Positions 1,244-5,633 of a stretch of DNA of 20,635 nt are shown here, in pieces. The position numbers were made by a program, and so were the translations under genes. The notes under the pieces were generated by a model, which saw nothing but the letters and a program-made list of their open reading frames with translations, had not been told where the DNA came from and did no database searches. The DNA is from a virus. Within the stretch, counting starts at the first letter, position 1; every line of letters begins with the position of its first letter. The stretch is taken from the IMG/VR virus record IMGVR_UViG_3300032087_005353, positions 1 through 20,635 of that record. One strand, written 5' to 3'.

Positions 1244-2430
1244 TACTTGACTCCTTTGCCTCGCGGTTTGTACGCTGAGCCTCCGGGCGTCAACATTTTC
1301 TCAATCATCTTACTCTGTTCCATCATGTTGATAGTAGTCTCAATGTTGTGGACCGGAACACGTTCCTGAAGAAACTTGATCAGACGATGTTTCTGAACGG
1401 GTGTTTGTTCTTTCGAGTATGTGGTGAAGATGTAGTACCATGCCTCTTCCATAATCTTACCCGCGCCGCCTTGCGACATTGCCTTGAAGATATCAGGCAT
1501 CATGTGTTCGGCCTCGATCAGCCAGTTAAACCCTCGCTCGAAATCTTCCGCAGTTACTAAAAGTTCGTCGGATCGGCTCATGCTCGACACGATGCAAAGT
1601 TTGAGTAAGTGGACTGTGCGGCGAATTGTATATGATACGAGTTTTGGATGCTCGGGTTTCGGCGCTCCGTCAGTGAGATGAAAGCGGTCCATCATCTCGG
1701 CGGCATCTTCCGTGAATTTTATCTCGCCATAGACGTTTGAAATTTGCGTTAGCTGTTCCTTCAAGACATCAAGTTCGCTCTGATCGAAAGCATGTTCTGC
1801 GAAGAGGGAGCGAAGTTGACGATCGCCTGAATATATCAACATGGTACGAGATAGGAAGCCCTGATCCCACGCACCTTCTGGCAAGACGTGCATTAGGTAG
1901 GAGGGGGTACAAGCCGCGAGTAAGTTAAGCTGAGGCTTGTCAATGTCTATTTCAAGTTTGGATGTTCTGCGTCGTTCTGAGTAATGCTTACAATCCCAAA
2001 GGTCTGTCAGGGTGTTCATGAAATCGTTTTCGTAGGCTGGAAGAAGAACACCTAGCTCGTTGATGCAGAGAAGGAGAGAGTTGAAATGCTCAACCGGGTT
2101 CGTTACGTTCTGCGTTATGATACGTCGATTGGCGTCAGCAAGCTCGTCAATTAGGCTGGCTTTGGTCACAGAGGTTGCCGCGATATGGTGTTCCTCAAGG
2201 TTCTCCCATAAGTCACGGACACGCCAAGTCACCTCGGTTTTACCAACACCCGGAGGAGCTACTAGTACAACATAGAAATTTGGATACAGTTTTGAACCGA
2301 GACTAGTCACCCAGACCTTTCGTTCAAGCGCTCCCGCAATTGCGCTAATCGCCGCCCACTTACGAAACAGGGGCGGCGATGTTATATTGTCGGTGTGGGC
2401 TATAAACCCATCAATCCAATCAGGTCTCAC
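1243..2430 (-). CDS. P-loop ATPase, DUF3987-like (putative phage helicase/primase-associated)
   Basis: This 395-residue protein has a Walker A motif APPGVGKT near residue 60 (APPGVGKTEVTWRV). A hydrophobic strand ending in acidic residues follows near residue 121 (LLLCINELGVLL), a likely Walker B. A sensor-like segment NLLAACTPSYL and an Arg-containing region (GFLSRTMLIY) come next. The order resembles the DUF3987 ATPases of phages and plasmids, which usually sit with replication genes. The start is GTG, overlapping the polymerase stop as GTGA and preceded by AAAGGATT. Its position directly after the DNA polymerase suggests a helicase or loader role at the fork. The ATPase call is firm; the exact function is inferred. 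Confidence 0.75.
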   Translation of the reverse strand: MRPDWIDGFIAHTDNITSPPLFRKWAAISAIAGALERKVWVTSLGSKLYPNFYVVLVAPPGVGKTEVTWRVRDLWENLEEHHIAATSVTKASLIDELADANRRIITQNVTNPVEHFNSLLLCINELGVLLPAYENDFMNTLTDLWDCKHYSERRRTSKLEIDIDKPQLNLLAACTPSYLMHVLPEGAWDQGFLSRTMLIYSGDRQLRSLFAEHAFDQSELDVLKEQLTQISNVYGEIKFTEDAAEMMDRFHLTDGAPKPEHPKLVSYTIRRTVHLLKLCIVSSMSRSDELLVTAEDFERGFNWLIEAEHMMPDIFKAMSQGGAGKIMEEAWYYIFTTYSKEQTPVQKHRLIKFLQERVPVHNIETTINMMEQSKMIEKMLTPGGSAYKPRGKGVK

Positions 2431-4016
2431 AAATAATCCTTTAACCTTTTACGAGGGCTGGGTTTGTCGCGGGTCTCCGAGCCTTTCCAGCCTTTGAGTC
2501 CGTGCGGGTTCTGCTTGTCAGCGTATCCCCAATTCCAGCCGCCCGCCGCATCAAGTGGAACTGTGAAGTCTCGTCCGCCCTTGAGTTGCAGAGTGACTTT
2601 CATTTCTTCCATGATGCGAGGGGCCAGGTCTTCGACTTCACTGAATGGAAGCTGAAGGAGGATAGAGTCATGGACTTGGTTTAAGAGTTGGACTTGAGGA
2701 AACGCGCGCCAGACTTGAAGAAGGCCTCGGTCGATTTGTTCTCCGGTTGGAGACTGGCCGCAAAATGCGATTGCCTTGCGGTGAGTGGACGCGTCATTAC
2801 CTCGCCCAAAGAAATGCCTGCGCCGACCGAAGATAGATGTAATAACTCCAGTTTCGCGGACTTGCCGAATTGTCTCGCCGTGAAATGCTTTGATACAGGG
2901 GAATTTAGCAAAGTACCCCTTCTGAAAGTACTCCATGATTTTAATGGTAGTGTGGAGGTGTTTTGCCATTGTAGGTGGGGTGCCGTAGTAGTTTGTGCCA
3001 TGTCCGCCTTTCTTAGACAACTGTCGATAACTGTCTTGGCCGTGAGCGATGATACCGTCGCAAAACTTTTTCCACTCAGAAACGTCTTCGGGCCACTCGA
3101 GGTCCGGCCAAACCATATTGCAGACTGTGGTATGCAAGTCTTCACCTTCAGCCGCGTTGAGGTAGGTTCCGGCAAATTCAGCGCCAACGGGTCCAGTCCA
3201 CTCATCCACGCCTAACGCTTTGGCTATGTCTTCGGCAGTTGCGTCGTAGAATAGGTTCCAACATACCGCTCCAATATTCCGTCCATCGGATTGCTCAAGG
3301 TCGATGTTGAGAAGGTACATGCCTGGATCGGCAACGAAGGGGAAACGGAGCTGACGGTTGACGTTCTGCAAATTCGTTCCTGTGCCGAAATCAGACATCG
3401 AGGAACTGAGTCGCCCGGTGTTTGTCCCGGCGATGTTATAGCTGGTTCGCATCCGGTGATCATCATCGAGTTCGGTTTTGAGAAAGGTTATTTGTTTATG
3501 GAGGTCGCGCAAGACGAGGATCATCTTGGCGAGGGGTCGGGCGTGAAGGTATATTTGAAATTGCTCAAGGGCTTCGCGGTTTACAGTAGCAGTGTATTGG
3601 CCTTTCGTATTCCGTTTCTTCACCTCCTTGACGCCGAGCATACCGTAGAAAAGGTTCTTCAATTGCAAGGGCGAATTCCAATTAAGTTCGCCACCGAAAC
3701 ACGCTACCATTATTCGCTGAAACTTTGCGTCGAGGAGTCGCCGCATTTCGGAAAGCTCGATGATGGAACGCTGACGAGAACCCTCATCAATGAGTGTCCC
3801 GCGCATAGTCATTTCCATGATCGGGGCGAGTTTGGCCAAGCTGCCCGCGTAAGTTCGCTGGACGTTGGGTGGTTCCTCAGCAAGCTGCTCGATCAAGACA
3901 TTGTAGACTTCAGCCGTCACTCCCACATCAAGTCCATTGTAGACCCATGACGCCTCGTCGGCGTTCATAGTTTTCATAGATGTTTCGTTAAGATCGGCTG
4001 TGTTGAATATCTTCAT
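2427..4016 (-). CDS. Family A DNA polymerase, polymerase-domain polypeptide (split PolA)
   Basis: The 529 residues carry the family A polymerase core. TGRLSSS lies near 200, motif A is at D239 (DLEQSDGR), the O-helix at R331-K335 (RQLSKKGGHGTNYYG) and motif C at H449-D450 (QVHDSI). The N-terminus holds only the last piece of a 3'-5' exonuclease domain: Y26-NGL-D30 matches Exo III (YxxxD). Exo I and Exo II are in the gene at 4608-5633, so the enzyme is in two polypeptides. The Klenow Glu710 position is Asp (D244) and the Phe762 position aligns with His339. Both are read by eye from motif alignment. The ATG overlaps the DUF1937 stop (ATGA). Without a partner this chain should lack proofreading. 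Confidence 0.93.
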   Translation of the reverse strand: MKIFNTADLNETSMKTMNADEASWVYNGLDVGVTAEVYNVLIEQLAEEPPNVQRTYAGSLAKLAPIMEMTMRGTLIDEGSRQRSIIELSEMRRLLDAKFQRIMVACFGGELNWNSPLQLKNLFYGMLGVKEVKKRNTKGQYTATVNREALEQFQIYLHARPLAKMILVLRDLHKQITFLKTELDDDHRMRTSYNIAGTNTGRLSSSMSDFGTGTNLQNVNRQLRFPFVADPGMYLLNIDLEQSDGRNIGAVCWNLFYDATAEDIAKALGVDEWTGPVGAEFAGTYLNAAEGEDLHTTVCNMVWPDLEWPEDVSEWKKFCDGIIAHGQDSYRQLSKKGGHGTNYYGTPPTMAKHLHTTIKIMEYFQKGYFAKFPCIKAFHGETIRQVRETGVITSIFGRRRHFFGRGNDASTHRKAIAFCGQSPTGEQIDRGLLQVWRAFPQVQLLNQVHDSILLQLPFSEVEDLAPRIMEEMKVTLQLKGGRDFTVPLDAAGGWNWGYADKQNPHGLKGWKGSETRDKPSPRKRLKDYL

Positions 4017-4336
4017 GGCTTCACCATCTTTACTGGGAGGCCCAAACGAGCGGAATATCGTAATTCTATATCAACGCCTTTGCTGTCGGCTACTCCGTCA
4101 ATATCTAGTACGTGCATCTCGGTGGAGTGTTTAAGCATGTGCGTGTTGAACGCAAGCCAGGTTACGTGATCGCCCGCAATTTTTCCGCTCATAGTAAACT
4201 GATGTCCGTATGCTATTGGTGAGAATATGAGAATGCCGCGAGACTTTTGAGCGGCAGCGTAATCGCGCGCCAACTCATAGCGGTGCTGCATGACGCGCGG
4301 GTCTGGGTGCGAATACGGACTTGCTAAGTAGATCAT
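4013..4336 (-). CDS. DUF1937 family protein (nucleoside deoxyribosyltransferase-like fold)
   Basis: This 107-residue protein opens with MIYLASPYSHPDPRVMQHRYELA, the typical DUF1937 start. WLAFNTHMLKHSTEMHVL and the terminal DSKGVDIELRYSARLGLPV complete the family pattern at its usual length. DUF1937 resembles nucleoside 2-deoxyribosyltransferases in fold, and such proteins occur in many phages, but their substrate is mostly unknown. A role in nucleotide metabolism or base handling is inference. The gene overlaps both neighbours by ATGA and lies between the two halves of the DNA polymerase, so it is part of the insertion that splits it. It has no membrane segment or signal peptide. Confidence 0.85.
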   Translation of the reverse strand: MIYLASPYSHPDPRVMQHRYELARDYAAAQKSRGILIFSPIAYGHQFTMSGKIAGDHVTWLAFNTHMLKHSTEMHVLDIDGVADSKGVDIELRYSARLGLPVKMVKP

Positions 4337-4608
4337 TTGTTATCCCCAAATCTCATTTTCATTGTATTTCGGTTAGCGCAGGTTCGGCAGGTATGACCCT
4401 TCCCTGCACGTAAACTCTCGGCGCGAATTTCGGACGTGATCCCACACTCACAAACGCAGAGCCAGTAGGGCGTCTTGCGTTGGGGATGCACTGGAAGTAG
4501 TCCTTTTACCGTGCGAGTGCCGAATACGTCATCTGTGTGATCGTAGCCTACGCGACGGAGGTTACCGTCTAAATCTAATATCTTATGAGTTTTTCGCGGA
4601 TACGCCAT
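4333..4608 (-). CDS. Small zinc-finger protein, homing-endonuclease-associated type
   Basis: The 91 residues start at the ATG overlapping the exonuclease stop (TAATG, 4606-4610) and end in an ATGA overlap with the DUF1937 gene. A longer upstream extension in this frame would run inside the exonuclease gene and was rejected. The core is VFGTRTVKGLLPV followed by WLCVCECG (C51, C53, C55), then SLRAGKGHTCRTC (C74, C77), a likely zinc knuckle. This FGxxTV, WxCxCxCG, LxxG, C pattern is common at the N-terminus of phage HNH or AP2-type homing endonucleases and in free-standing relatives. No HNH nuclease motif is present. It lies exactly where the polymerase gene is split, so it may be a remnant of the mobile gene that caused the break. 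That is inference. Confidence 0.7.
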   Translation of the reverse strand: MAYPRKTHKILDLDGNLRRVGYDHTDDVFGTRTVKGLLPVHPQRKTPYWLCVCECGITSEIRAESLRAGKGHTCRTCANRNTMKMRFGDNK

Positions 4609-5633
4609 TAATCGTCTCCCTGTTTTAATGTTGAGTGGTCGGTACGCATGAATTTCCAGCTTGGCTCGTTGGTGTAGATCGAACCGAGAAACCCGAGAGA
4701 TTTTTCCATTTCCGGCTGGAGTGCGTGGTGAAGGAGCATAGTATCGCCAAGGAAGGTTGGGCATGGTATGCGAACTGTACGCCAAAGATACTGCATGTCG
4801 TAAGAGAAGTTTTGACCGACTGTTGGGAGGAGGCAAATGCGTCGGACCCAGCGCCACGCCTCAGCTTCTTCTGCATGAGTCTTCCAATAGTTTCCGTCAG
4901 CTGCGGCTCGGTGATAGAATGGAATGACCATAATGTGAGCGCCATCGGCAGTCCCAACGCCAACTTCGGTAATTGAGAGCATCTTGGTTTCGATGTCTAA
5001 TGACACATAGGGGCTGGGGACGAGGTGGGTGTAGTAGAACTCTTCAATGTCGGTCACGGAAGGCTCGAGGTAGATCAAATGTTCTGGTCGCTTGATCTCT
5101 GGGTAAGCGGACTCAGAGCGGGCTTTTGCGCAATCTGCAAGTGTTATGACTCGAAGTTCCCATTGCCGCTGAATGGAGAGCGGACCCCACGCCGGAATAA
5201 CTTTGGCTGATCCGTCGTGAGTTGGGAGAGGACTGCCCCTATATTTTTTAATTCCAGTCTTCTTGCACAACGCCCATAAGGCGAGGTTGCCGAGAGCGAT
5301 GATTACGTTAGGTTTGACTCGCTCTATCTCAGCAAAAAGCCTGTCGAGTTCTGGTTGGTAACGGCGATGAATGAATTTGCCAGGGGCAAGCGGTCTGTAG
5401 TTTGCAACGGCCTCGGACTTAGGACCACAGAAATAATCAAAGCGATTTCCATGTGGCCGCTCACTGATTGCGTTTGTAAAGTGGACCTCGCGCGGGTCGA
5501 TGCCAGCCTGACGCAGGATGCCGAACAAAATGCCGCCAGTAGGACCGTCGAACGGCTTTCCAGTCTGTGCTTCGAGTTCGCCGGGAAATTCGCCTACGAT
5601 CATTATAGGTTTGTGAGTTGTTGTGGGTAGCAT
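4608..5633 (-). CDS. UDG-like domain fused to 3'-5' exonuclease (N-terminal part of split PolA)
   Basis: This protein has 341 residues. Residues about 10-165 look like a family 4/5 uracil-DNA glycosylase: GEFPG at 14-18, GKPFDGPTGG at 25-34, LGNLAL at 114-119. The later His-Pro motif reads PAWGPLSI (147-154), lacking the usual His. Residues about 205-341 are a DnaQ-like exonuclease with Exo I D213-I-E215 and Exo II N275-FSY-D279. Exo III is missing here and sits in the downstream polymerase gene. The chain ends KQGDD, just before where an intact PolA would continue. The start is the ATG at 5633 with GGAGAAAAC upstream; a TTG at 5684 overlapping the previous stop has no such site. It probably pairs with the 529-residue chain to form a proofreading polymerase. 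Confidence 0.85.
   Translation of the reverse strand: MLPTTTHKPIMIVGEFPGELEAQTGKPFDGPTGGILFGILRQAGIDPREVHFTNAISERPHGNRFDYFCGPKSEAVANYRPLAPGKFIHRRYQPELDRLFAEIERVKPNVIIALGNLALWALCKKTGIKKYRGSPLPTHDGSAKVIPAWGPLSIQRQWELRVITLADCAKARSESAYPEIKRPEHLIYLEPSVTDIEEFYYTHLVPSPYVSLDIETKMLSITEVGVGTADGAHIMVIPFYHRAAADGNYWKTHAEEAEAWRWVRRICLLPTVGQNFSYDMQYLWRTVRIPCPTFLGDTMLLHHALQPEMEKSLGFLGSIYTNEPSWKFMRTDHSTLKQGDD

Follow-up and report, generated by a model that had tools for sequence, protein, structure and literature searches.

The window analyzed here is the whole of the 20,635-nucleotide virus record IMGVR_UViG_3300032087_005353. On its minus strand, from position 5633 down to 2427, four overlapping genes code for a uracil-DNA glycosylase (UDG)-exonuclease, a small zinc-cysteine protein, a DUF1937 protein and a family A DNA polymerase. 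An earlier note on this DNA had claimed that the first and the last of them are parts of a single polymerase cut within its proofreading site, i.e., with the motifs Exo I and Exo II in a 341-residue gene and Exo III at residue 26 of a separate 529-residue gene. These coordinates are confirmed, and a DUF1937 gene and a small zinc-finger gene do lie between the halves. The features of the locus are the following:

4608..5633 (-), UDG and 3'-5' exonuclease chain (P0001), the N-terminal part of the family A polymerase, 341 aa; PF03167 E=1e-16; phrog_17 columns 480-788
4986..4997 (-), Exo I, DIET at residues 213-216 (D213, E215), invariant in 94 aligned exonuclease chains
4797..4811 (-), Exo II, NFSYD at residues 275-279 (N275, D279), N and D invariant in the 94 aligned exonuclease chains
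4611..4625 (-), KQGDD, C-terminal end of the exonuclease chain, counterpart of KTGED in the linker of unsplit relatives (junction comparison)
4333..4608 (-), small zinc-cysteine protein (P0002), 91 aa; phrog_374 columns 193-257, E=5e-10
4013..4336 (-), DUF1937 / nucleoside deoxyribosyltransferase-like protein (P0003), 107 aa; PF09152 E=2e-11, phrog_355
2427..4016 (-), polymerase chain (P0004) with Exo III, thumb, palm and fingers, 529 aa; PF00476 E=3.5e-34; phrog_17 columns 808-1232
3957..4016 (-), N-terminal extension of the polymerase chain, about 20 residues, MKIFNTADLNETSMKTMNAD, absent in unsplit relatives
3927..3941 (-), Exo III, YNGLD at residues 26-30 (Y26, D30), on helix 19-46 of the polymerase chain, invariant in 90 aligned polymerase chains

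The overlaps, like the KQGDD end of the exonuclease chain, could be read directly as previously described: TAATG between the exonuclease gene and P0002, and ATGA both between P0002 and the DUF1937 gene and between the latter and the polymerase gene. A GTGA overlap joins the polymerase gene to the next gene, DUF3987. Neither a promoter nor a terminator was found between the four overlapping genes on the coding strand and, therefore, they probably form a single translationally coupled transcript.

The cut falls in the linker that joins Exo II to Exo III. The profile of intact polymerases, phrog_17 (1445 columns), is matched in order by the two chains, and the same arrangement was found against a bacterial PolA (L202), in which the exonuclease-chain profile covers residues 342–451, with DiET/QNglYD aligned to DTET/GHHLKYD, and the polymerase-chain profile starts at 490. 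In the latter profile, built from 90 chains, YngLDccvT aligns with the Exo III of L202 (YAAEDAHVT), located inside its PF01612 exonuclease domain (329–515), and the identification of YNGLD as Exo III, on which the earlier claim depended, is upheld. In a profile search of the PDB, profile position 20 matches Klenow from chain position 170; as the Klenow chain starts at residue 324, the Tyr of the profile corresponds to Tyr497 of Klenow and its Asp to Asp501. A PDB search with the exonuclease chain sequence by itself found the exonuclease part weakly, and profiles were required. At all 169 loci that we found split at this linker YxxxD is present at the start of the polymerase chain, and no substitute YxxxD was found in any of the 169 exonuclease-chain tails, i.e., the upstream protein has no Exo III of its own, the alternative that the earlier note had itself named.

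Close unsplit relatives, suggested before as the proper comparison, do exist (L004, L005, L180–L192). In unsplit phage relatives the spacing from a conserved WK to the Exo III Tyr is mostly 17 residues, e.g., WKDEGKDWDAKTGEDQLWFYN. Split members have a median of 14 residues after the WK on the exonuclease chain plus a median of 23 before the Tyr on the polymerase chain (20–27 aa in nearly all of them), indicating that no residues were lost and about 20 were gained at the polymerase N-terminus. The description of the polymerase as resuming as if one chain had been cut is thus right in that the junction is colinear without loss (by phrog_17, by linker lengths and by L202) and has to be amended for the extra N-terminal residues. 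The synteny with unsplit relatives is also conserved, with a methyltransferase upstream and DUF3987 downstream.

The catalytic residues are maintained on both sides of the cut. In the exonuclease chain, D213, E215, N275 and D279 are among 15 invariant columns, and in the polymerase chain Y26 and D30 are among 19, alongside D239, R331, K335 and D450 from the polymerase motifs A (D), B (R...K) and C (HD). Nearly all members have HDS in place of HDE in motif C (residues 449–451 in the window), and an invariant His (H339, in the region of residues 331–345 of the polymerase chain) appears to occupy the O-helix position that corresponds to E. coli 762. All three motifs of the DEDDy exonuclease of PolA (Exo I DxE, Exo II NxxxD and Exo III YxxxD) are present, divided between two polypeptides instead of being together on one, and apart from this the locus has, at the sequence level, what defines a family A polymerase carrying a DEDDy exonuclease. 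The ratio of nonsynonymous to synonymous substitution rates (dN/dS) was ca. 0.02–0.19 in both chains (26 close pairs), indicating that both are under strong purifying selection. AlphaFold2 predicted each chain alone with high confidence (predicted local distance difference test, pLDDT, 92.9 for the exonuclease chain, with disorder limited to the last seven residues, and 94.6 for the polymerase chain, with Exo III on the confident helix). Invariant residues, low dN/dS and confident folds together make loss of proofreading or pseudogene decay very unlikely.

The predicted structures were also compared by Foldseek. The polymerase chain matched PolI large fragments of the Bst/Taq/Klenow type (best Bst/Taq PolI, E about 1e-21). 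The exonuclease chain, whose relatives are 38–70% identical, matched UDGs (1l9g/1vk2, E=1e-12), the UDG-containing phiLo polymerase 9qhs and, weakly, PolI and exonucleases. P0001 has the fold and motif 1 of a family 4/5 UDG (Foldseek, PF03167). The His of UDG motif 2 (HPS/HPA) is absent in the window, where the region reads WGPLSI (WGPLS, His to Gly); this His is kept in 63 of the 94 aligned exonuclease chains and lost in the other 31 with the fold retained, which suggests a UDG domain with a non-catalytic role.

Relatives were collected by viral contig searches seeded with the window chains, their profiles and a basal set (Kuura, L025, L178 and others). Each contig scan comprised the best 80 loci, and statements that all are split hold for this sampled neighborhood. 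A locus was counted as distinct if the last 120 residues of its exonuclease chain differed, with no clustering at an identity threshold, and by this count there are 169 distinct split loci among the relatives found. Kuura, a cultured Caulobacter phage, is one of them, as are two contigs of metagenome-assembled genomes (L178, Sphingomonadales, and L179, Acidobacteria). The relatives from these seeds were split wherever both parts were present. The scans seeded with the window chains gave split relatives only, and the unsplit IMG/VR contigs came from a scan seeded with L004, a member of the unsplit sister clade (L004, L005, L180–L192 and L196). In an IQ-TREE polymerase tree (125 rows) 101 split rows, leaving out L194 and L198, form one clade with a Shimodaira–Hasegawa-like approximate likelihood ratio test (SH-aLRT) support of 99. 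Similarly, in a mixture-model IQ-TREE tree of the concatenated exonuclease and polymerase chains (69 rows) the 50 sampled split rows group together with an SH-aLRT of 95 as a single clade, and this tree needs just two changes, the old split and L194. No re-fusion was seen among the 169 loci. As read from these trees, the split consists of one old clade and one independent later case, L194. The earlier note has to be corrected on this point, since by the same phylogenies the split is ancient and clade-wide and not peculiar to the virus of the window.

What lies between the halves is much less constant. The gap between the exonuclease and polymerase genes has a median of 555 bp and ranges from -4 to 5080 bp. 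At 101 of the 169 split loci it contains DUF1937, which adjoins the polymerase in 89 of those 101. As in the window (4013–4336, minus strand), this gene persistently stands by the polymerase start, often with an ATGA overlap, and the spacing is -4 in 30 loci. HNH endonuclease genes are present in the gap of 18 loci (L194 and 17 clade members), and MazG-like, HD-domain and unknown genes also occur there. A Pfam scan of 87 other gap proteins found mostly no family in common. The gap of L045 (1203–5638), of 5 kb, contains two long open reading frames (ORFs; 697 and 785 aa) for which Pfam gave no match. At three loci no gene separates the halves, which are still encoded as two chains, L258 and L269 with a TAATG overlap and L283 with an ATGA overlap. 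L283 has an occupied counterpart in its close relative L263 (polymerase distance about 0.2), where an HNH gene (3562–3990) sits exactly at the exonuclease/polymerase junction that is empty in L283 (3990–4000). The insert is, therefore, neither constant nor needed for keeping the halves apart, and we rejected the inserted genes of the window as a constant cause of the split. Here too the earlier note requires correction: the inserted genes are replaceable and do not keep the halves apart.

The small gene P0002 had been described as of homing-endonuclease type, and this is strengthened by the profile matches. P0002 matches the zinc-finger segment (193–257) of the HNH family phrog_374, and the insert of L194 matches the part that follows (267–355). 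No HNH nuclease motif was found in the 91 aa of P0002, which by these matches represents the zinc-finger part of an HNH homing-endonuclease family and lacks the nuclease part. HNH genes lie in the gap of L194 and of 17 clade members, and in the window the zinc-finger module alone remains. L194, placed within the unsplit clade, has its cut at the same linker. Its exonuclease chain ends QWKPDKTTWKVGG, its insert is a 142-aa HNH-type protein (phrog_3377 E=8e-28, phrog_374 E=2e-25), and its polymerase restarts shortly before EEDLWKYNCLD. This fresh split points to homing endonucleases as the cutter, and together with the phrog_374 match of P0002 it fits insertion of a homing-endonuclease gene beside the conserved Exo III codons, like that of MobE in nrdA; the halves are colinear with unsplit relatives as in the Aeh1 nrdA type. 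An HNH homing-endonuclease gene would have been inserted in the linker of an intact polymerase gene, and cargo genes, DUF1937 among them, would later have taken its place or come to lie beside it; some lineages would then have lost every insert with the two chains staying separate.

Other interruptions were found in related genes. In a more distant UDG-PolA (L198:1658–4361, MW202554) the cut comes immediately after Exo III, and the gap contains an NrdR-like zinc-ribbon ORF in a different frame. This locus is the single case of YxxxD on the exonuclease chain, i.e., a different split, past Exo III. Three loci (L147:4671–6419, L174:8794–11235 and L141:3780–6185) have in-frame inserts of ca. 280 aa inside the polymerase chain, probably inteins, and those of L147 and L174 match LAGLIDADG_3.

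Exonuclease and polymerase are also on separate chains in DNA polymerase III (epsilon and alpha), but there the complete exonuclease site is on its own chain. The unsplit phage UDG-PolA proteins of phrog_17 (MW202489 and Microcystis phage Mel-JY34, PP438425, with phiLo 9qhs as a solved example) share with the window the UDG-exonuclease-polymerase order, Exo I–III and the polymerase motifs and, for MW202489 and Mel-JY34, the gene neighborhood. They differ in being one polypeptide, mostly with the 17-residue WK-Tyr linker and without any extension before Exo III. Among split replication proteins, the NrdA of Aeromonas phage Aeh1, split by a MobE insertion, is fully active, and the split gp43A/43B of T4-like phages co-purify and polymerise (PMC2988022). 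In both, as here, a replication gene is in two colinear pieces; the cause there was a homing-endonuclease gene or insertion, which is the cause proposed here too, and in those cases the two chains reassemble. However, NrdA is a ribonucleotide reductase and gp43 a family B polymerase, both known from single or few phages, whereas the cut described here crosses the proofreading site and has become fixed in a large clade, including members that have no insert. The OM43 phages MEP401 and MEP402 have split family A polymerases (PMC10580990), like Vibrio phage VS-ABTNL-3 (L006), with two ORFs and a small ORF between them, but in these the cut is inside the PF00476 polymerase domain and the whole exonuclease site remains on the first chain. 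Finally, the cultured Caulobacter phage Kuura (OQ067476) belongs to the same clade and has the same split (exonuclease chain 38% and polymerase chain 32% identical), with two other small genes between the halves and the exonuclease chain annotated as a hypothetical protein; the Kuura paper does not mention the split (PMC9959647). In the open-access literature searched we found no description of a split between Exo II and Exo III, or of a cut across the proofreading site fixed in a large clade.

All this makes it highly probable that the locus encodes one family A replicative polymerase (UDG-like, 3'-5' exonuclease and polymerase) made as two polypeptides, with the site completed across the subunit interface. 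The placement of the motifs supports the earlier proposal that two genes each encode part of one catalytic site and that proofreading would need both proteins. The exonuclease chain would dock on the Exo III helix and the thumb side of the polymerase chain, Y26 and D30 would make the DEDDy site whole in trans, and the resulting heterodimer would both polymerise and proofread. Co-translational assembly would be aided by the new N-terminal residues of the polymerase chain and by the overlap of the genes, which are probably co-transcribed. Reassembly of the halves into an active enzyme is likely because the catalytic residues are conserved. Several points weigh against parts of this picture. Proofreading can be dispensable for some phage polymerases. 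The pairwise distances of the two chains are correlated (r = 0.74, with 0.26–0.39 for either chain against the intervening DUF1937 gene), but DUF1937 evolves faster, which weakens the comparison and leaves the correlation as supportive only. In a FastTree tree (177 rows) the base has a support of 18, too low to tell whether the intact clade stands beside or between the two main split groups; the mixture-model tree of the concatenated chains did resolve this base. The HNH genes in the gaps could have entered when the gene was already split, so that the origin step rests mainly on L194. It is also formally possible that each chain works alone, the invariant Tyr and Asp being kept for folding or DNA binding, or that the exonuclease chain acts with another partner.

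If the split had instead inactivated the exonuclease, the upstream chain would be kept for UDG-like DNA binding or processivity and the polymerase would copy DNA with no proofreading. A structural role of this chain may well exist, as the window and 31 of the 94 chains have lost the His of UDG motif 2 and kept the domain, but divergence of this depth without function would let the catalytic residues drift, and those of Exo I, II and III are invariant in both chains across a deep clade with low dN/dS; we regard the loss of proofreading as very improbable. Even less credible is that the halves are rejoined into a single mature chain by an intron, a trans-splicing intein or a programmed frameshift. 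Group I introns (SPO1) and the probable, LAGLIDADG-bearing inteins of L147 and L174 do occur in related polymerase genes. However, a search of the whole window against Rfam gave no match, intron or other, on which we rejected an intron or RNA element there, no intein domain was found at the cut, two complete overlapping ordinary ORFs separate the halves, and the chain ends have their own stop and start codons at a conserved position. Besides, the linker of a joined product would be ca. 20 residues longer than the usual intact one, and members with no insert show ordinary TAATG/ATGA overlaps. A refinement compatible with the two-polypeptide polymerase is that the split is adaptive and not a tolerated scar, the UDG-exonuclease chain being a dissociable, separately dosed subunit that would let the virus use its polymerase either with proofreading or without. 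The single old clade, the lack of re-fusion, the persistence of the split even with no intervening gene and the new conserved extension on the polymerase chain speak for it. However, re-fusion needs the joint loss of insert, stop and new start, and non-reversal is expected under neutral, ratchet-like evolution too; we consider the adaptive split possible but rather unlikely. Its extended form, a clade-wide replicase with the proofreading center only at the subunit interface and a split selected since the UDG-exonuclease chain can come and go, i.e., regulated or switchable proofreading, we hold to be unlikely.

The division of a catalytic site between two proteins is ancient, widespread and directly testable. 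If the chains assemble, this would be a natural polymerase whose proofreading site is built from the residues of two proteins and has been kept over deep divergence in many viruses. It opens to test how a divided exonuclease site evolves, whether proofreading can be switched by subunit exchange and whether the scar of a homing endonuclease can become a permanent architecture, with a natural experiment at hand in the recent split (L194), the old split with an insert and the old split with the insert gone. The exonuclease chain of such phages is easily annotated as hypothetical, as happened in Kuura, and the half of the replicase that proofreads is thereby hidden.

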